Of a stretch of 64,000 nt of DNA, positions 1,772 to 8,821 are shown one piece after another. The notes under the pieces were generated by a model. It was given only the letters and a program-made list of their open reading frames with translations. It did no database searches and had not been told where the DNA came from. Every line of letters begins with the position of its first letter. Within the stretch, counting starts at the first letter, position 1. A program made the position numbers and the translations under genes. The DNA comes from Phycicoccus sp. M110.8. Lineage in GTDB: Bacteria > Actinomycetota > Actinomycetes > Actinomycetales > Dermatophilaceae. The DNA is taken from the NCBI RefSeq assembly GCF_032464895.1, contig NZ_JAWDIC010000001.1:1488001-1552000 (forward strand), read 5' to 3'.

Positions 1772-1845
1772 GAGCCCCTCGGCCTCCCCCCACGACGCCG
1801 CCCATTCCGTCCTCATCCGATCGACACCGCCCGCTCCCACGCTCT

Positions 1846-1920
1846 CCCACTTGTTGCCACGTGGTGGTCACCGGGACGCCAGATCGGCCGACCCGTGACC
1901 ACGAGGTGGCAACAAGTGGG
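1846..1920. repeat. 75-bp REP-like palindromic element, copy 1
   Basis: A long imperfect inverted repeat. The left arm starts CCCACTTGTTGCCACGTGG and continues TGGTCACCGGG; the right arm is its complement, ending GTGGCAACAAGTGGG. The unpaired centre is about 16 bases. It lies between purM and the 3' end of the broken FG-GAP gene. A second element of the same 75-bp length and the same outer arms is at 20038-20112. It could act as a terminator or mRNA stabiliser, or be a REP-type mobile palindrome. Confidence 0.75.
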
Positions 1921-1936
1921 GGTAGGGGTCAGGCCG

Positions 1937-2757
1937 TCAGAAGATCGCGTCGAGGCCGTTCCAGCCGGTGCCGACACGGACCCGCGGCAGCCAGCCGCCG
2001 GCCGGCGTGCGGGCGTACAGCCACAGGTTGCCGTACCGGTCCCGCGCCAGGACGTCGGGGATGCGGTCGCCGGTCAGGTCACCGGGGCTCATGATCGCCG
2101 TCATGGCGTTCCAGCCGGTCCCGACGCGGACCCGCGGCAGCCACCCGCCCCTGCCGTTGCCGGGGTACAGCCACAGGTAGCCGGTGCGCGACTCGCGGGC
2201 CAGGACGTCGGCCGCCCCGTCACCGTTGAGGTCGCCCGGCGCCGCGAGCGCGCTGAAGGCGTTCCACCCCGAACCCACGCGGACCCGGGGCAGCAGCCCA
2301 CCCGTGCCGTTGCCGCGGTAGAGCCACAGGTAGCCCGTGGAGCGCTCGCGCGTCAGCAGGTCCGGACGCTGGTCGCCGTTGAAGTCGCCCGGCGCGAGGA
2401 TTGCGGAGAAGCCGTTCCAGCCCGTCCCGATCCGCACCCGCGGCAGCCGCCACCCGCGTTGGTCCTGGCCCAGGCGACCTGATCGGCGAGGCAGGGGTTC
2501 TCGGTGAACGGCAGGCCGGAGGTCAGGCCGATCACCACGAACTGTGCCGTGGTCGGCGGCATCGGGAGGCCATAGCCGCCCACGCCCGTGGGACACTGCG
2601 GCCAGGAGACGTCGTTGCCGAACAGCGGCAGCGTCACTGCCGGCGCCGCACCGCGCCCGGCAGCGTCGACCGGCCCGCCGAGCACCGCACCGCCCGTCAC
2701 CGCCAGGGCCGTCAAGGCAGCGGCAGCCGCCACTCTGACAATCGGGTTCCTCGGCAT
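1937..2757 (-). pseudogene. Frameshifted secreted protein: truncated GH25-like N-terminus joined to FG-GAP/VCBS repeats
   Basis: The ATG at 2757 follows GGGAGGTGG and opens a signal peptide (MPRNPIVRVAAAAALTALAV), then a segment with NDVSWPQCP and FTENPCLADQVAWA, typical of the start of secreted GH25-like/DUF1906-like domains. After about 110 residues the frame is lost near 2450. The next frame carries four repeats of about 44 residues of the type LPRVRVGTGWN...PGDLNGDG..DVLAR..GYLWLY, an FG-GAP/VCBS beta-propeller pattern, ending at 1937. The N-terminal domain is far shorter than I would expect, so an internal deletion plus a frameshift is likely. A single sequencing error cannot be excluded but would not restore the missing domain. 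Confidence 0.7.
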
Positions 2758-2846
2758 GCGAACCACCTCCCACCCCGGCCAGTGCAGCACCGGGAGGAGG
2801 GAGCGACTAGGGACCTAGGGCCGGGGTCCGACCGATCAGGACAGGG

Positions 2847-4385
2847 TCAGGGGCGGCTGAGGGCGTCCTCGGCACCGCCGGCGACGCCGAGGCTCACGCC
2901 GTCGACATCGAGCGGCAGCGTCTCGAACAGGTTCTTGCCGAGCCGGGAGTCGTCGGGCAGCGGCACCGGGTAGCTGCCGGTGAAGCAGGCCGTGCACAGG
3001 GCCGAGCGCGGCTGCTCGGTGGCGGCGACCATCCCCTCCTCGGAGATGTAGCCGAGGGAGTCGGCCCCGATCGACGTGCAGACCTCGTCGACCCCGATGC
3101 CGGTCGCGATGAGCTCGGCCCGGGTCGCGAAGTCGATGCCGTAGAAGCAGGGCCAGCGCACGGGCGGCGAGGAGATCCGCACGTGGACCTCGGCCGCACC
3201 GGCCTCGCGCAGCATCCGCACGAGCGCCCGCTGGGTGTTGCCGCGCACGATCGAGTCGTCGACCACCACGAGCCGCTTGCCCTTGATGACGTCGCGCAGC
3301 GGGTTGAGCTTGAGCCGGATGCCGAGCTGGCGGATGGTCTGCGACGGGGCGATGAACGTGCGCCCCACGTAGGAGTTCTTGACCAGGCCCTGGCCGTAGG
3401 GGATTCCCGACTCCTGCGCGTAGCCGATCGCGGCCGGCGTGCCGGACTCGGGCGTCGGCATGACCAGGTCGGCCTCAACGGGGTGCTCGCGCGCCAGCGC
3501 CCGGCCCATCTCGACCCGGGCCTCGTGCACGCCACGGCCGCTGATGGTGGTGTCGGGGCGAGCGAGGTAGACGTACTCGAAGACGCAGCCCTTGGGCTCG
3601 GCCGGGGCGAACCGCTGCGAGCGCAGCCCCTCCTCGTCGATGGCGATGAGCTCGCCGGGCTCGACCTCGCGGATCATCGAGGCGCCGACGATGTCGAGCG
3701 CAGCGGTCTCGGAGGCGACGACCCAGCCGCGCTCGAGCCGGCCGAGCACCAGCGGGCGGATCCCGTGCGGGTCACGCGCGGCATACAGCGTCGTCTCGTC
3801 CATGAACACGAAGCAGAAGGCGCCGCGCAGCAGCGGCAGGATCTCCAGCGCCGCGGCCTCGAGCGAGCGGTCGGGGTCGTCGGAGAGCAGGGCGGTGACC
3901 AGTGCCGTGTCGGTGGTGTTGCCGCGGGTCAGCTCGCCGCGGCTGCCGCCGAACCCGTCGGCACGCCGGTCGGCGACGAGGTCGCGCAGCTCGGCGGAGT
4001 TGATGAGGTTGCCGTTGTGCGCCAGGGCCACGGTCGAGGAGTCGTGGCCGCCGAGCGTCGGCTGGGCGTTCTCCCAGGTCGAGCCGCCCGTCGTGGAGTA
4101 GCGGCAGTGGCCGACAGCGAGGTGCCCGCGCAGCGATGCCAGCGACCGCTCGTCGAACACCTGCGAGACCAGGCCCATGTCCTTGTAGACGAGGATCGAG
4201 CGGCCGTCGGAGGTCGCGATGCCGGCCGACTCCTGCCCGCGGTGCTGCAGGGCGTAGAGGCCGTAGTACGCGAGCTTGGCGACCTCCTCGCCGGGAGCCC
4301 ACACGCCGAAGACCCCGCAGGCGTCCTGCGGGCCCTTCTCGCCGGGGAGGATGTCGTGGGAGAGCCGTCCGTCGCCGCGTGCCAC
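2847..4385 (-). CDS. purF: Amidophosphoribosyltransferase
   Basis: PurF makes phosphoribosylamine from PRPP and glutamine, the committed step of purine synthesis. I start it at the GTG at 4385 because GGGAGG lies 9 bases upstream; the ATG at 4394 abuts that sequence. A propeptide (MARGDGRLSHDILPGEKGPQ) precedes the catalytic Cys23 in DACGVFG, exposed by self-cleavage. The PRPP loop VVVDDSIVRGNT is present. Cysteines in GCVFEY, PCFYGIDF and LCTACFTG fit the four ligands of the Bacillus-type 4Fe-4S cluster, so this should be the oxygen-labile form. It is downstream of a small membrane protein gene on the same strand. Confidence 0.97.
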   Translation of the reverse strand: MARGDGRLSHDILPGEKGPQDACGVFGVWAPGEEVAKLAYYGLYALQHRGQESAGIATSDGRSILVYKDMGLVSQVFDERSLASLRGHLAVGHCRYSTTGGSTWENAQPTLGGHDSSTVALAHNGNLINSAELRDLVADRRADGFGGSRGELTRGNTTDTALVTALLSDDPDRSLEAAALEILPLLRGAFCFVFMDETTLYAARDPHGIRPLVLGRLERGWVVASETAALDIVGASMIREVEPGELIAIDEEGLRSQRFAPAEPKGCVFEYVYLARPDTTISGRGVHEARVEMGRALAREHPVEADLVMPTPESGTPAAIGYAQESGIPYGQGLVKNSYVGRTFIAPSQTIRQLGIRLKLNPLRDVIKGKRLVVVDDSIVRGNTQRALVRMLREAGAAEVHVRISSPPVRWPCFYGIDFATRAELIATGIGVDEVCTSIGADSLGYISEEGMVAATEQPRSALCTACFTGSYPVPLPDDSRLGKNLFETLPLDVDGVSLGVAGGAEDALSRP

Positions 4386-4481
4386 GTGCCCCATCCTCCC
4401 ACAGCCGCCGGTCGCGCCTGCGCGCGACGGCCGGGTCGGTCGCGGCGGCCCGGGAGCGTCAGCCGGGTCCGTCCGGGAGAG

Positions 4482-4709
4482 TCAGTCGCGGCGGTCGAGC
4501 AGCACCGCGACGACGGCGGCGAGCAGCCCGAACACGAAGGCCCCCAGCAGGCCGAGGAACATCACCGCGCTGCCCGGGCTGTAGGTGTGGCCGTACTCCG
4601 TCGTGTCCTCGGGGTTGAGGTAGGCGAACGCGGACCCGACGACGAAGCCCACGATGACGCCGGTGGCGATGAACGCGACGAAGTTGGGGTAGCGACGGGT
4701 GCGGCTCAC
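4482..4709 (-). CDS. Small two-span membrane protein upstream of purF
   Basis: A 75-residue protein starting at the GTG at 4709 (VSRTRRYPNFVAFIATGVIV), with an AAGGGG directly before the start. Two hydrophobic spans, about residues 10-30 (FVAFIATGVIVGFVVGSAFAY) and 48-70 (AVMFLGLLGAFVFGLLAAVV), flank a short acidic and tyrosine-bearing loop (NPEDTTEYGHTYSPG). It ends with basic and acidic residues (LLDRRD). It sits about 95 bases before purF on the same strand. I do not recognise a function. Confidence 0.75.
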   Translation of the reverse strand: MSRTRRYPNFVAFIATGVIVGFVVGSAFAYLNPEDTTEYGHTYSPGSAVMFLGLLGAFVFGLLAAVVAVLLDRRD

Positions 4710-4760
4710 CCCTTCACGGTACCTGCCGGTCGCGGGGCCCACCGACCCGGGCGTGACCTC

Positions 4761-4788
4761 CCATCCGCAACCCGCGGCGGGTACGAAT
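4761..4788 (+). promoter_or_regulatory. SigK-type promoter of the molybdenum oxidoreductase gene
   Basis: CCATCC at 4761-4766 and ACGAAT at 4783-4788 are 16 bases apart. This matches, with one change, the CCATCC/CCGAAT motif I recall for mycobacterial SigK. Transcription would start about 6-7 bases further on, at or next to the ATG at 4796, giving a leaderless mRNA. sigK itself lies 2.5 kb downstream, and the fasciclin gene between them has a similar promoter. Confidence 0.55.
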
Positions 4789-4795
4789 GGGAGGT

Positions 4796-6463
4796 ATGAG
4801 CACCCCCACGAGGACCACCCGCCTGACGTATGCCGTGAGCGGCCTGCTCGCCGCGGCCGCCGGCATGGCTGCGGGGCACCTCGTGGCGGCCTTCGTGAAC
4901 CCGGCGGCCTCGCCGGTGCTCGCCATCGGCTCCACCGTGGTGGACGCGACACCCACCCCGGTGAAGGAGTGGGCCGTCCAGACGCTCGGCACCAACGACA
5001 AGCCCGTCCTGCTCACCACCGTCGCGGTGGTGACCGCGCTCGCCTCCGCGGGGATCGGGCTGCTGTCGCGCAGCCGGCACTCGCTCGCCAACGCCCTGCT
5101 CGTCGTGCTCGCGGCCCTCGCCGGGATCGCGGCCCTGCTGCGGCCAGCGTCCCTCCCCCAGGACATCATCCCGGCCGTGGTCGCGGGCACCGTGGGTGTC
5201 GCGGTCCTGTCCGGTCTGCGACTGCTCGCCGAGCGCATCGAGGACTCGGCGCAGCTCGCCGCCCGCGGGGGCGACCAGCGGTCCCAGCCCACCCCCGCCA
5301 CCGTGCCCGACCGCGGCTGGGCCACCTCCCGCGGGGCATCCCGCGGTCAGGAGCCCGAGTCGCCGCTCGACCACACGGCATACGCGCCCGGCACCCCCGG
5401 CACGCCGGCCCGCCGCAGCTTCCTGCTGGGGGCGGCAGGGGTCACCGTCGGCGCCGCCGCCGTCGGCGCGCTGGGCCAGAAGCTCGGCGGCGGCGCCTCG
5501 ACGCCCGCGGACGTCACCCTGCCCGCACCCGCGACGACGCTGCCGCCGCTGCCCACCGGGATCGAGGGGAAGGTCAAGGGGGTCAGCGCGTTCCGCACCC
5601 CGACGTCGGACTTCTACCGGGTCGACACCGCCCTGGTCATCCCCCGTGTCGACGTCGACACGTGGAAGCTCGAGGTCGACGGCATGGTCGACAAGCCGTT
5701 CTCGATGTCGTTCAAGGACCTGCTGGCCATGGACGTGATCGAGAAGGACATCACCCTCAACTGCGTCAGCAACGACGTCGGCGGTCCCTACATCTCCTCG
5801 ACGCGGTGGCTCGGCGTGCGGGTGCGTGACGTCCTGGAGCGGGCCGGCATCCAGTCGGGGGTGGAGCAGATCTTCTCGGAGTCGGTCGACGGCATGACCA
5901 TCTCGACCCCGGTCGAGGCACTCACCGACGACCGCGACGCCCTCATCGCGATCGCGATGGACGGGCAGCCGCTGCCACCGCGCCACGGCTTCCCCGCCCG
6001 GCTCGTCACGCCCGGCCTCTACGGCTTCGTCGGCGCGACCAAGTGGCTGAGCAAGCTGACCGCGACGACCTACGCCAAGGACAAGGCCTACTGGACCGAA
6101 CGGGACTGGGTGACCGACGCCCCGGTGAAGACCCAGTCGCGGATCGACACGCCCATGGGCCTCGGGACCTACAAGCCGGGGAAGATCGCCGTCGGGGGCG
6201 TCGCCTGGGCGCAGGCGGGCGACGGGATCAGCAAGGTCGAGGTCCGCGTCGACGACGGGCCGTGGCGCGAGGCGACCCTCGGGCCCGACGGCGGCACCGT
6301 CTACTGGCGGCAGTGGAGCTGGGTCTGGGACGCCACGAGCGGCCGCCACGACGTGACGGTCCGGGCCACGAACGGGAAGGGCGAGGTCCAGACGGACAAG
6401 CGGGTCGACCCCTTCCCCGGTGGTGCCTCCGGGTACCACTCGATCGTCGTCATCGTCTCCTGA
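4796..6463 (+). CDS. Membrane-anchored sulfite-oxidase-like molybdopterin oxidoreductase
   Basis: A 555-residue protein. The first 180 residues hold about four membrane spans. A twin-arginine-like RRSFLLGAAG follows near residue 205 and appears to lead into an extracytoplasmic domain. The C-terminal half is a sulfite-oxidase-fold molybdopterin domain: TLNCVSNDVGG carries the molybdenum-binding cysteine, and a Mo-co dimerisation-type domain (PGKIAVGGVAWAQAGDGISKVEVRVDDG) ends the protein. The substrate is unknown. The start at 4796 fits the SigK-type promoter; the ATG at 4787 is the alternative. In mycobacteria SigK controls cell-surface FAS1 proteins, and the neighbouring fasciclin-sigK-rskA genes suggest a shared redox or cell-surface role here. 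Confidence 0.85.
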   Translation: MSTPTRTTRLTYAVSGLLAAAAGMAAGHLVAAFVNPAASPVLAIGSTVVDATPTPVKEWAVQTLGTNDKPVLLTTVAVVTALASAGIGLLSRSRHSLANALLVVLAALAGIAALLRPASLPQDIIPAVVAGTVGVAVLSGLRLLAERIEDSAQLAARGGDQRSQPTPATVPDRGWATSRGASRGQEPESPLDHTAYAPGTPGTPARRSFLLGAAGVTVGAAAVGALGQKLGGGASTPADVTLPAPATTLPPLPTGIEGKVKGVSAFRTPTSDFYRVDTALVIPRVDVDTWKLEVDGMVDKPFSMSFKDLLAMDVIEKDITLNCVSNDVGGPYISSTRWLGVRVRDVLERAGIQSGVEQIFSESVDGMTISTPVEALTDDRDALIAIAMDGQPLPPRHGFPARLVTPGLYGFVGATKWLSKLTATTYAKDKAYWTERDWVTDAPVKTQSRIDTPMGLGTYKPGKIAVGGVAWAQAGDGISKVEVRVDDGPWREATLGPDGGTVYWRQWSWVWDATSGRHDVTVRATNGKGEVQTDKRVDPFPGGASGYHSIVVIVS

Positions 6464-6469
6464 CGACGA

Positions 6470-6505
6470 GGCCGCGCACCCACCGTAGGGGGAGGGTGCG
6501 CGGCC
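6470..6505. terminator. Hairpin between oxidoreductase and fasciclin genes
   Basis: GGCCGCGCACCC (6470-6481) pairs perfectly with GGGTGCGCGGCC (6494-6505) around a 12-base loop, 6 bases after the oxidoreductase stop. There is no T-run, as is common in actinobacteria. It supports a separate promoter for the fasciclin gene. Confidence 0.65.
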
Positions 6506-6627
6506 GACCCATGTCCCCGTGCGTGCGCGCCCCGCGCTGCGCCCGGGGCACTGTCGCGCCCCGGCCGGCACGCACCCCCGCGACCCGGGCACACCCACGA
6601 CACACGCGGAATCTTTTCTCCCCCAGT

Positions 6628-6656
6628 CCAATCCGCCCCATGAGCGGCACCGAATC
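6628..6656 (+). promoter_or_regulatory. SigK-type promoter of the fasciclin gene
   Basis: CCAATCC at 6628-6634 and CCGAATC at 6650-6656 are separated by 15 bases. The -10 part matches the mycobacterial SigK motif exactly and the -35 part nearly so. Transcription from about 6663 would leave a leader of about 33 bases carrying AAGGAG at 6681-6686 before the ATG at 6696. Confidence 0.6.
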
Positions 6657-6695
6657 GCTGGTGTAACTCGAACCTCTACCAAGGAGCGTCACACC

Positions 6696-7337
6696 ATGAG
6701 CACTGCACGTCGCAGCACCATCGCTGCCCTTGCCCTCGCCCTGCCGCTCGGCCTCGCGGCGTGTGGCAGCTCGGACAGCGCGAGCGCCGGAGCGTCGAGC
6801 AGCTCGTCCTCGAGCATGCCGAGCTCGTCCAGCTCGTCGTCCTCGTCCTCGTCCTCCGACATGATGGGCCAGCCGTTCGGCGCCGCCTGCAGCGCGGTCC
6901 CGAAGGACGGCAAGGGCTCGTTCTCCGGCATGGCCACCGACCCCGTCGCCACCGCTGCCAGCAACAACCCCGTGCTGAGCCAGCTCGTGGGCGCGGTCAA
7001 GGAGGCCGGCCTGGTCGACACCCTCAACAGCGCCAAGGACATCACCGTCTTCGCGCCCACCAACGACGCCTTCAAGGCCGTCCCGAAGGCCACCATGGAC
7101 GCGGCGATGAAGGACCCGAAGGGCCTGCTCACCAAGGTCCTCACCAACCACGTCGTCCCCGGCAAGCTGACCCCGGAGCAGCTCCCCGGCGACCACAAGA
7201 CCCTGGCCGGCACGACCATCAACGTCACCGGCTCGGGCGAGTCCTTCAAGGTCGGCGAGGCGAACATCGTCTGCGGCAACGTGCAGACCGCGAACGCCAC
7301 CGTCTACATCATCGACGGCGTTCTCCTTCCGAAGTAA
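6696..7337 (+). CDS. Fasciclin (FAS1) domain lipoprotein, MPT70/MPT83-like
   Basis: A 213-residue secreted lipoprotein: a signal peptide with lipobox LAAC near residue 23, a serine-only linker of about 25 residues (SSSSSMPSSSSSSSSSSSSD), then one FAS1 domain with FAPTNDAFKAVP and NHVVPGKL. The ATG at 6696 has AAGGAG upstream. The closest well-known relatives are the mycobacterial antigens MPT70 and MPT83, whose genes are controlled by SigK; here sigK and rskA follow directly. FAS1 proteins are thought to act in adhesion or surface interactions; the role here is inferred. The serine stretch uses mostly AGC and TCG/TCC codons and could vary in length. Confidence 0.9.
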   Translation: MSTARRSTIAALALALPLGLAACGSSDSASAGASSSSSSSMPSSSSSSSSSSSSDMMGQPFGAACSAVPKDGKGSFSGMATDPVATAASNNPVLSQLVGAVKEAGLVDTLNSAKDITVFAPTNDAFKAVPKATMDAAMKDPKGLLTKVLTNHVVPGKLTPEQLPGDHKTLAGTTINVTGSGESFKVGEANIVCGNVQTANATVYIIDGVLLPK

Positions 7338-7349
7338 GCAACATCAGCC

Positions 7350-7958
7350 ATGATGGTTCCCGTGGCAGCCACTTCCCCAGGTCCCGGAGCGACCTGGGGA
7401 AGTGCTGCCCCCCCATCGGACCTGGCGGCGCTGCTCAAGGCGTGCGCGCTGGGTGACGAGGGCGCGTTCAGCCGGCTGTACGACCTCGTGTCGTCCCGCG
7501 TCTACGGCCTGGTCCTGCGGGTCGTGCGCGACCCCGCCCAGTCCGAGGAGGTCGCCCAGGAGGCACTCCTGGACATCTGGCGGACCAGCTCCCGGTTCGA
7601 CCCCGCGCAGGGATCAGCCATCAGCTGGATGCTCACGATCGCCCACCGCAAGGCCGTCGACCGGGTGCGTTCCGCCCAGGCCGCGACCGACCGCGAAGGT
7701 GTCTACGGCGCCCGCAACCAGGACCGCGAGTTCGACCAGACCGCCGAGACCGTCGAGCGCAGCCTCGACGCCCAGCGCGTCCGCAACGCCATGGAGACGC
7801 TCACCGAGACCCAGCGGGGAGCGCTCGAGCTGGCCTACTTCGGTGGCTACACGCACACCGAGGTGGCCGCCCTCCTGGACATTCCCCTGGGTACCGCCAA
7901 GACCAGGATCCGCGACGGGCTGATCCGGCTGAGAGACACGTTGGGGGTGCAGTCATGA
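7350..7958 (+). CDS. sigK: ECF RNA polymerase sigma factor SigK
   Basis: A 202-residue group IV sigma factor. Region 2 (FSRLYDLVSSRVYGLVLRVV ... AQEALLDIWRTSSRFDP, about residues 35-75) recognises the -10 element. Region 4 (LTETQRGALELAYFGGYTHT ... IPLGTAKTRIRDGL, about residues 145-195) recognises the -35. The start could be the ATG at 7350 or 7353 or the GTG at 7362; none has a good Shine-Dalgarno, and a strong hairpin covers codons 5-20. It begins 12 bases after the fasciclin stop and its TGA overlaps the ATG of rskA (ATGA), so the anti-sigma factor is translationally coupled. The link to SigK-type promoters upstream suggests autoregulation. Confidence 0.9.
   Translation: MMVPVAATSPGPGATWGSAAPPSDLAALLKACALGDEGAFSRLYDLVSSRVYGLVLRVVRDPAQSEEVAQEALLDIWRTSSRFDPAQGSAISWMLTIAHRKAVDRVRSAQAATDREGVYGARNQDREFDQTAETVERSLDAQRVRNAMETLTETQRGALELAYFGGYTHTEVAALLDIPLGTAKTRIRDGLIRLRDTLGVQS
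7364..7409 (+). promoter_or_regulatory. Long hairpin inside the first codons of sigK
   Basis: GGCAGCCACTTCCCCAGGTC (7364-7383) pairs with GACCTGGGGAAGTGCTGCC (7391-7409) with one bulged base and a 7-base loop. Every possible sigK start codon (7350, 7353, 7362) lies upstream of it, so the stem is within coding sequence. It could lower sigK expression relative to the fasciclin gene, as a partial terminator, RNase barrier or translation brake. Confidence 0.6.
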
Positions 7959-8821
7959 GCGCCGACATCCACGGCCTCGTGGGCGCCTATGCCGTCGACG
8001 CCGTCGACGACCACGAGCGCGCTGCGTTCGAGACCCACCTGGCCGAGTGCCCGGAGTGCCGTGCCGAGGTCTCCTCGCTGCGCGAGGCGGCCGGCCAGCT
8101 CGGCCTGCTCGCCGAGACCGCTCCCCCGTCGAGCCTGCGCGACGCCGTGCTCAGCCGGATCGGCACCGTGCGTCCGCTCCCGCCGCTGGCCGACGACCTG
8201 CGCTCGACCCCGCCCGTCGCGGGCGGTCCGCCAGCGCCACACCTGGACACGCCGACCCACCTGGTGCCGGTGCCGGCCACCGGCAGCGTCGACGAGGGAC
8301 CCGGCGGCACCGCGCACGACTCCACCCCGGTGGAGGAGTCGGGTGGCGGGGTCGTCGTGCCCCTGCGGCGGCGGAGCGCGCTCACCTGGCTTGCCGGGGT
8401 CGCAGCTGCTGCGGCCCTGGTGATCGGCGGCCTGGTGTGGAGCCCGTGGTCCGACTCCGGTCCGTCGACGCGGCTCACGGCCACCGAGCGGGTGCTCGAG
8501 GCCAAGGACGCGCAGCGGTTCGTCAAGGTGATCGACGGCGCCCGCGCCACGATCGTGCGCAGCCCGTCCATGGGCAAGGCCGTGCTCATCGCCGACAACA
8601 TGCCCTCCGCCCCTGCCGGGAAGGACTTCCAGGTCTGGTTCGACCAGCCGGGCAAGGGGATGCAGAGCGCGCTGGTCATGCCGCACGGCAGCGCGCCGAC
8701 GGTGACGGTGATGCTCGAGGGCGACGCGGCCACCGCGACCGGCGCCGGGATCACCCTCGAGCCGGCAGGCGGCTCCCCGGAGCCGACGTCGGCGCCGCTG
8801 GCACTGTTCTCGTTCAGCTGA
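7955..8821 (+). CDS. rskA: Anti-sigma-K factor RskA
   Basis: A 288-residue single-span membrane protein. The N-terminus (MSADIHGLVGAYAVDAVDDH, then HLAECPECRAEV near residues 30-41) is the cytosolic anti-sigma domain that binds SigK. A proline-rich linker of about 75 residues leads to one membrane span (residues 146-168, LTWLAGVAAAAALVIGGLVW). The C-terminal extracytoplasmic RskA domain includes FVKVIDGARATIVRSPSMGK and KDFQVWFDQPG. In mycobacteria RskA holds SigK until it is cut by regulated intramembrane proteolysis. It overlaps sigK by 4 bases and is followed by a strong terminator. Confidence 0.92.
   Translation: MSADIHGLVGAYAVDAVDDHERAAFETHLAECPECRAEVSSLREAAGQLGLLAETAPPSSLRDAVLSRIGTVRPLPPLADDLRSTPPVAGGPPAPHLDTPTHLVPVPATGSVDEGPGGTAHDSTPVEESGGGVVVPLRRRSALTWLAGVAAAAALVIGGLVWSPWSDSGPSTRLTATERVLEAKDAQRFVKVIDGARATIVRSPSMGKAVLIADNMPSAPAGKDFQVWFDQPGKGMQSALVMPHGSAPTVTVMLEGDAATATGAGITLEPAGGSPEPTSAPLALFSFS

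Follow-up and report, generated by a model that had tools for sequence, protein, structure and literature searches.

Which genes does the sigma factor SigK govern in an actinobacterium outside the mycobacteria, and does a molybdoenzyme belong among them? The question is raised by a locus in a 64,000-nucleotide (nt) stretch of Phycicoccus sp. M110.8 (contig NZ_JAWDIC010000001.1, positions 1,488,001 to 1,552,000), referred to below as the window. The locus contains genes for a membrane-anchored molybdenum-cofactor (MoCo) oxidoreductase (OR), a fasciclin lipoprotein (FAS), the extracytoplasmic function (ECF) sigma factor SigK and the anti-sigma factor RskA. An initial annotation had described it as a SigK regulon packed into one place, with two matching promoters and a possible redox link. 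The analysis presented here indicates that the locus is quite likely the core of a SigK–RskA regulon of the Pedococcus/Phycicoccus group.

SigK-type sites before OR and FAS

The two sequences from which the regulon had been proposed, CCATCC-N16-ACGAAT before OR and CCAATCC-N15-CCGAATC before FAS, are both present, sigK and rskA follow, and the likeness of both sites to the mycobacterial SigK motif is kept in relatives. A scan with the uniform motif C[AC]ATCC-N16/17-CGAA[TC] found exactly two exact matches on either strand of the window, namely these two. At the same composition, 64 kb of first-order Markov sequence would hold 0.1 exact matches, and in none of 20 simulations was an exact match followed by a start codon 7–8 nt further on. 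For a narrower pattern, 0.06 matches were expected from dinucleotide shuffles. Allowing one mismatch added three sites, all on the minus strand, which is about the number expected by chance. As a control, 270-nt upstream regions, the window's own included, were scored out of 11. The best score was 10–11 in all 34 FAS upstream regions and in 33 of the 37 OR upstream regions; the same regions read backwards scored 7–9, and the Markov null attains 11 in about 0.2% of trials. The shuffle and Markov counts, together with the upstream-region scores in relatives, exclude a chance origin of both sites.

A search of 98 genomes, among them that of the window, found OR in 79, and the best-scoring OR places of other genomes provided 40 loci for comparison. 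A contig scan yielded 15 loci, several of which were duplicates of genomes already in the set and were left out of the counts. A site that scores 10–11 of 11 and has an ATG or GTG in frame 7–8 nt past the −10 element precedes OR in 35 of the 40 relatives as well as in the window. The other five loci score 6–7, and none of them has an adjacent FAS or sigK. Because the start codon always lies 7–8 nt past the −10 wherever the site recurs, the OR mRNA is probably leaderless; this invariant spacing is what a leaderless mRNA would require if transcription begins about 7 nt past the −10. Another ATG, at 4787, shares bases with the −10 and is missing from some relatives. In most loci the FAS start codon lies 35–46 nt past the −10, preceded by an AAGGAG-type site. 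The conserved spacing at OR would thus make a clear-cut natural case for testing leaderless translation under an alternative sigma factor.

The OR site also tracks the presence of the neighboring genes. FAS lies near OR in 33 of the 40 relatives, with sigK and rskA then following in the same order in most. The site is found in 33/33 loci with an adjacent FAS or sigK and in 2/7 without (p = 3e-5, with rows that are not independent, 10 of the 40 being from the same genus). A phylum-wide search matched OR in 193 of 296 genomes. Among 29 new best loci, a leaderless-spaced site was present in 8/11 FAS-adjacent loci and 4/18 others (p = 0.018, at a looser threshold of 9 of 11 that has no null estimate). 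SigK orthologs were searched for in 14 genomes chosen for a non-adjacent sigK or as an odd case. No ortholog was found in three genomes where OR lacks the site (G017, G045 and G022; best E 1e-13 to 4e-17). Five genomes with the site (G028, G033, G020, G029 and G014) have an ortholog with 58–68% identity elsewhere, not just downstream, and two more (G082 and G089) have the site and SigK homologues of 44–48%. The conserved site and its tracking with FAS and sigK support the earlier placing of the molybdenum oxidoreductase in the regulon.

Table 1. Features of the locus (window coordinates).
Feature	Position	Strand	Remarks
SigK-type promoter of OR	4761..4788	+	−35 CCATCC 4761-4766, spacer 17, −10 CGAAT 4784-4788; distance kept in 35/40 relatives
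Gap (7 nt) and OR ATG (4796-4798), predicted leaderless start	4789..4798	+	start 7–8 nt past −10 in 35/40 relatives
OR, membrane-anchored MoCo oxidoreductase	4796..6463	+	PF00174, 5 predicted transmembrane helices, R206-R207, predicted sulfite-oxidase fold with C-terminal immunoglobulin-like domain
Strong hairpin 3' of OR	6470..6505	+	12-bp perfect arms, terminator-like without T run; parts OR from fasciclin operon
SigK-type promoter of fasciclin-sigK-rskA operon	6628..6656	+	CCAATCC-N15-CCGAATC
Ribosome-binding site of FAS	6681..6686	+	AAGGAG, from sequence; similar in relatives
FAS, MPT70/MPT83-like fasciclin lipoprotein	6696..7337	+	lipobox LAAC, Ser-rich linker; PF02469 1.6e-29
sigK, ECF sigma factor	7350..7958	+	without any of the four M. 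tuberculosis SigK cysteines
rskA, full-length anti-sigma factor	7955..8821	+	HxxxCxxC motif, transmembrane segment, RskA_C domain

Proteins of the locus

The products of the fasciclin operon were identified by Pfam and by comparison with solved structures. The best match of FAS is MPT70 (1nyo, 5.8e-38). SigK contains sigma-70 regions 2 and 4 and is closest to SigK of Mycobacterium tuberculosis (4nqw_A, 2e-49; next solved ECF factor, 1e-25). RskA matches PF10099 (1.1e-22) and PF22618 (5.3e-7), with RskA_C accompanied by RskA_N and zf-HC2 matches. SigK is the only factor of its type in the genome; the ECF factor next closest to it shares 34% identity. FAS ends 12 nt before sigK, and no SigK site of its own was found upstream of sigK: the best score is 7–9 in 28/28 sigK upstream regions. 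Since this equals the level of the backwards control, an internal site was dropped, and transcription of sigK-rskA therefore probably depends on the FAS promoter.

SigK and RskA stand beside OR together at 27 loci, the window included. All 27 SigKs lack a cysteine at each of the four M. tuberculosis SigK positions, and all 27 RskAs are 239–302 residues long with HxxxCxxC and a hydrophobic segment. For two further SigKs no RskA was found; one has none of the cysteines (L071) and the other has two of the four (L080). The latter belongs to a metagenome-assembled genome, on a contig labelled Acidobacteriaceae, where positions 1781-4834 carry a fasciclin gene, OR and sigK with a SigK-type motif upstream of OR; horizontal transfer or a mis-binned contig is possible. 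M. tuberculosis SigK is said to sense redox by cysteines that are absent from the window SigK, which has no 133/183 pair. This pair is not strictly defining: according to section 11 of PMC7509140, it occurs in 94% of ECF18 and 56% of ECF19, and a cysteine-less SigK paired with a full-length RskA is common. HxxxCxxC is not in the aligned stretch of M. tuberculosis RskA. A shift of sensing from SigK cysteines to RskA is offered as a hypothesis only, because the RskA group is described as a mix of zinc and non-zinc forms in which the motif may be structural (PMC7406223).

The molybdopterin domain of OR (PF00174, E 7.8e-41) sits after N-terminal membrane helices. The hydrophobic segments can be read as five transmembrane (TM) helices, with R206 and R207 directly before the last one; each of the two is kept in 95% or more of the 37 proteins compared. 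A structure model built from 12 sequences (mean predicted local distance difference test score, pLDDT, 75.5) matches sulfite dehydrogenases and oxidases with a Foldseek E of about 1e-20 (1.1e-20), the C-terminal immunoglobulin-like (Ig-like) domain included. MsrP (1xdq) is matched at E 2.4e-9 over just 172 columns. The predicted molybdenum ligand C323 is invariant. R275 is conserved and aligns with R55 of the sulfite dehydrogenase SorA, and D277 occupies the place of SorA His57. We take R55 and His57 to be the active-site Arg/His pair, with a catalytic role for His57; in OR the arginine of this pair is present and the histidine is replaced. OR is thus predicted to be a Sec/Tat-type molybdoenzyme of the sulfite-oxidase fold with an extracytoplasmic catalytic domain.

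MsrP (YedY) has a MoCo domain without a C-terminal Ig-like dimerisation domain. This domain in OR, and the alignment of sulfite dehydrogenases over more of the protein, rule out OR as an MsrP. Heme binding by the membrane helices is ruled out as well: heme-b histidines in TM2-4 are absent from the SigK-linked OR proteins, where the only histidine conserved within the helices is His28 of the first helix (35/37). The labels “MsrP” and “heme-MoCo protein” should not be used for OR. The predicted topology is that of Sco3746 and its family, MoCo membrane proteins of the dual Sec/Tat type (PMC5449189). These likewise have five predicted TM helices, the last of them directly preceded by a twin-arginine, and carry the MoCo domain at the C terminus. 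Sco3746 is inserted by Sec and Tat together, and the same paper proposes heme b binding by the TM2-4 histidines, which, unlike in that family, are not conserved in the SigK-linked proteins; it also tabulates a Phycicoccus protein. The hairpin that follows OR folds with −34.5 kcal/mol (z −4.4) and is consistent with two separate transcripts, one of OR and one of the FAS operon; OR ends 164 nt before the second promoter.

SigK-type sites elsewhere in the genome and genus

The regulon is not packed in one locus as the initial annotation had it. That annotation had also suggested searching the genome for further sites, and 12 exact sites were found, against one with the reversed pattern, several of them before other genes. 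Besides those of OR and FAS, sites stand before genes for a second fasciclin, a CHRD protein, an alpha/beta hydrolase and a glutathione peroxidase (PF00255). Another precedes a gene for a flavin amine-oxidase-type protein, behind which lie DUF1365 and CMAS genes, and the site before MsrB (PF01641) has a 7-nt spacing as at OR. The DUF1365 frame of this genome was read by eye, the Pfam match being that of the copy in genome G002. Four sites are doubtful: the one at L145 precedes a response regulator, that at L147 an aldehyde dehydrogenase, that at L148 ftsH and that at L003 a DUF7455-like protein.

In 11 genomes of the genus, 51 CAATCC-type sites were found against one in the reversed-pattern control, and 79 CCATCC-type sites against 12. 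The examination covered 125 distinct sites; some of the sister genomes' OR and FAS sites fall in other loci and enter the counts for OR and FAS given above. One member of each downstream family was named by Pfam and the rest by similarity or by eye. The flavin oxidoreductase (DUF1365/CMAS cluster) follows a site in 10 of the 11 genomes, the hydrolase in eight, a small Tat-signal protein with DUF4331 in six, CHRD in five, and the second fasciclin and a peroxiredoxin in three each. The proposed redox link is strengthened by the recurrence of the same motif before other oxidative-damage genes, both in this genome and in the genus.

Some of these places have features of their own. At the Tat-signal protein/DUF4331 sites (L108, L110, L122, L123, L168 and L229), a conserved GTGAGGTGGGTCAC, resembling a CRP/FNR-type operator, stands directly past the −10. 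MerR proteins with B12-binding domains, a type known as light sensors, are encoded divergently from both flavin/DUF1365/CMAS clusters tested (L353:10489-11866 and L151:9862-11013), and a second, light-linked control is possible there. In G002, DUF1295 of the flavin cluster is followed by the gene of another ECF sigma factor and by one for a small anti-sigma-like membrane protein (L150:7265-8633).

Three kinds of site were dropped as regulon evidence, the first two because conservation extends to their spacers. Before the small DUF7455-like protein, the site and its spacer are kept in 10 genomes as a conserved non-coding element (L003, L112-L117, L120, L128 and L129, at about position 1501). 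The hpt-ftsH intergenic motif and spacer are likewise almost identical in four genomes (L148, L202, L222 and L233), and this element may be a stress promoter of ftsH that is of a different type. The site G000:C1:769724 lies within a probable coding frame.

The proposed regulon, its rivals and known systems

In the proposed mechanism, membrane-bound RskA would keep SigK captive, and a signal from the envelope or of a redox kind, most likely photo-oxidative, would free it. SigK would then bind the sites described above and start the leaderless OR mRNA, with its first base at about the ATG, giving the membrane-anchored extracytoplasmic molybdoenzyme; it would also start the fasciclin-sigK-rskA operon, giving a surface lipoprotein and a feedback loop. 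Freed SigK would probably serve dispersed lipid-modification genes (flavin oxidoreductase, DUF1365, CMAS) as well as MsrB, glutathione peroxidase and peroxiredoxin, which would handle oxidised proteins and peroxides, and CHRD and the second fasciclin. The targets suggest a response to oxidised envelope components, and from them we infer that envelope photo-oxidative repair is the function of the regulon. The most far-reaching version makes SigK the master of a photo-oxidative envelope response that combines a non-heme dual Sec/Tat OR from a leaderless mRNA, fasciclin/CHRD surface proteins, DUF1365/CMAS lipid modification and methionine-sulfoxide/peroxide repair, a zinc-type RskA having taken over the sensing from the cysteines of SigK. 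We consider it speculative and rather doubtful. If it were true, oxidised-lipid or singlet-oxygen-type damage would be what the SigK regulon of M. tuberculosis responds to.

Several points weigh against a SigK regulon of this kind. The motif thresholds were chosen after these promoters had been seen, and the reversed-pattern control does not keep dinucleotides. Many CCATCC-type sites of the genus have no sensible downstream gene and are probably due to chance. Two genomes (G085 and G067) have SigK homologues of 45–47% yet no OR site, and G053 retains the OR site with no intact sigK ortholog found. In the G053 locus (L048, G053:C153, positions 4647-6553), OR has a leaderless SigK-type promoter, FAS and sigK were not found nearby and a 3' piece of rskA comes after OR, a pattern that suggests loss of the FAS-sigK-rskA module. 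Among the 11 genomes of the genus, the MsrB site is confined to two, this one and one sister, and the glutathione peroxidase site was seen in this genome alone. Finally, another ECF gene follows the flavin cluster in G002, and some sites could therefore serve other factors. The last three observations also favor a narrower reading in which the promoters are real and ECF-dependent, the dispersed genus sites are shared with or owned by other ECF factors, and the SigK regulon consists of OR and FAS-sigK-rskA only. The additional GTGAGGTGGGTCAC at the DUF4331 sites points the same way, as does the use of CGAA-type −10 elements by factors other than SigK. Such a division is a real, if minority, possibility; it has to contend with the same two-part motif and spacer being autogenous to sigK in a genome with a single SigK-type factor. 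A further argument against it comes from M. tuberculosis Rv0449c, which is presumably a flavin-oxidoreductase homologue. The Rv0449c promoter is under SigK control (PMC7509140).

That OR is merely a neighbor, independent of SigK and transcribed from a look-alike housekeeping or other-sigma promoter, would agree with the strong hairpin and the distance between OR and the second promoter. It is very improbable given how closely the OR site follows FAS/sigK adjacency in the family, to which the phylum-wide counts add a weaker argument. The alternative that OR acts in sulfite oxidation or detoxification, and that the regulon answers reactive sulfur rather than photo-oxidation, draws on the match to sulfite dehydrogenases and oxidases with a C-terminal Ig-like domain, far above that to MsrP, and on the invariant molybdenum-ligand cysteine. 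We regard it as unlikely, with D277 standing where SorA has its presumed catalytic histidine and the co-occurring targets being genes for lipids and peroxides, not for sulfur.

A SigK system outside mycobacteria, suggested earlier for this locus, is present here but is not new. Rhodococcus and Yersinia are already reported to carry the cassette fasciclin (mpt83)-sigK-rskA together with a SigK site (PMC7509140, describing Veyrier 2008). The three genes and the site before the fasciclin gene are identical in arrangement to those of the window; PMC7509140 does not mention a molybdoenzyme. The same source states that SigK sites are conserved between Actinobacteria and that SigK orthologues are active at the mpt70 promoter. 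The M. tuberculosis regulon (mpt83, mpt70, dipZ and the Rv0449c operon) resembles the present one in its SigK and RskA homologues, the MPT70-like fasciclin target, the CCATCC/CCGAAT-type promoter and autoregulation via an upstream target promoter. It differs in that here the fasciclin gene heads the sigK operon directly, OR joins the set under a promoter with leaderless spacing, the redox cysteines are missing from SigK and HxxxCxxC is present in RskA. The literature searched, Veyrier 2008 being outside its scope, contained no report of a molybdoenzyme as a SigK-regulon member, of the leaderless architecture or of a broad genus regulon, and their absence from print is not established.

As to the signal, the SigK stimulus is described as obscure (PMC9861118). 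The mpt83/mpt70 homologues of Mycobacterium kansasii are modestly light-induced (PMC9861118); counting against a photo-oxidative signal, the effect is small compared with carotenoid and photolyase genes and the study did not show it to require SigK. In a soil actinobacterium, RskA decreased on exposure to UV (PMC8965627). A non-mycobacterial SigK regulon with oxidation-repair, lipid-modifying and molybdoenzyme genes would make the stimulus question directly testable. In Rhodobacter sphaeroides, the DUF1365 enzyme UfaO produces furan fatty acids, whose level rises when ChrR is lost (PMC7380195). This RpoE(ECF11)–ChrR singlet-oxygen response thus shares DUF1365 with the Pedococcus flavin clusters, which have DUF1365 and CMAS behind SigK-type sites, although its ECF group and type of anti-sigma factor are different. 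The oxidative regulons of Bradyrhizobium japonicum EcfF and Shewanella oneidensis RpoE2, with ECF-controlled methionine sulfoxide reductases (PMC3420878) and glutathione peroxidase (PMC4336711), have similar targets under other ECF groups.

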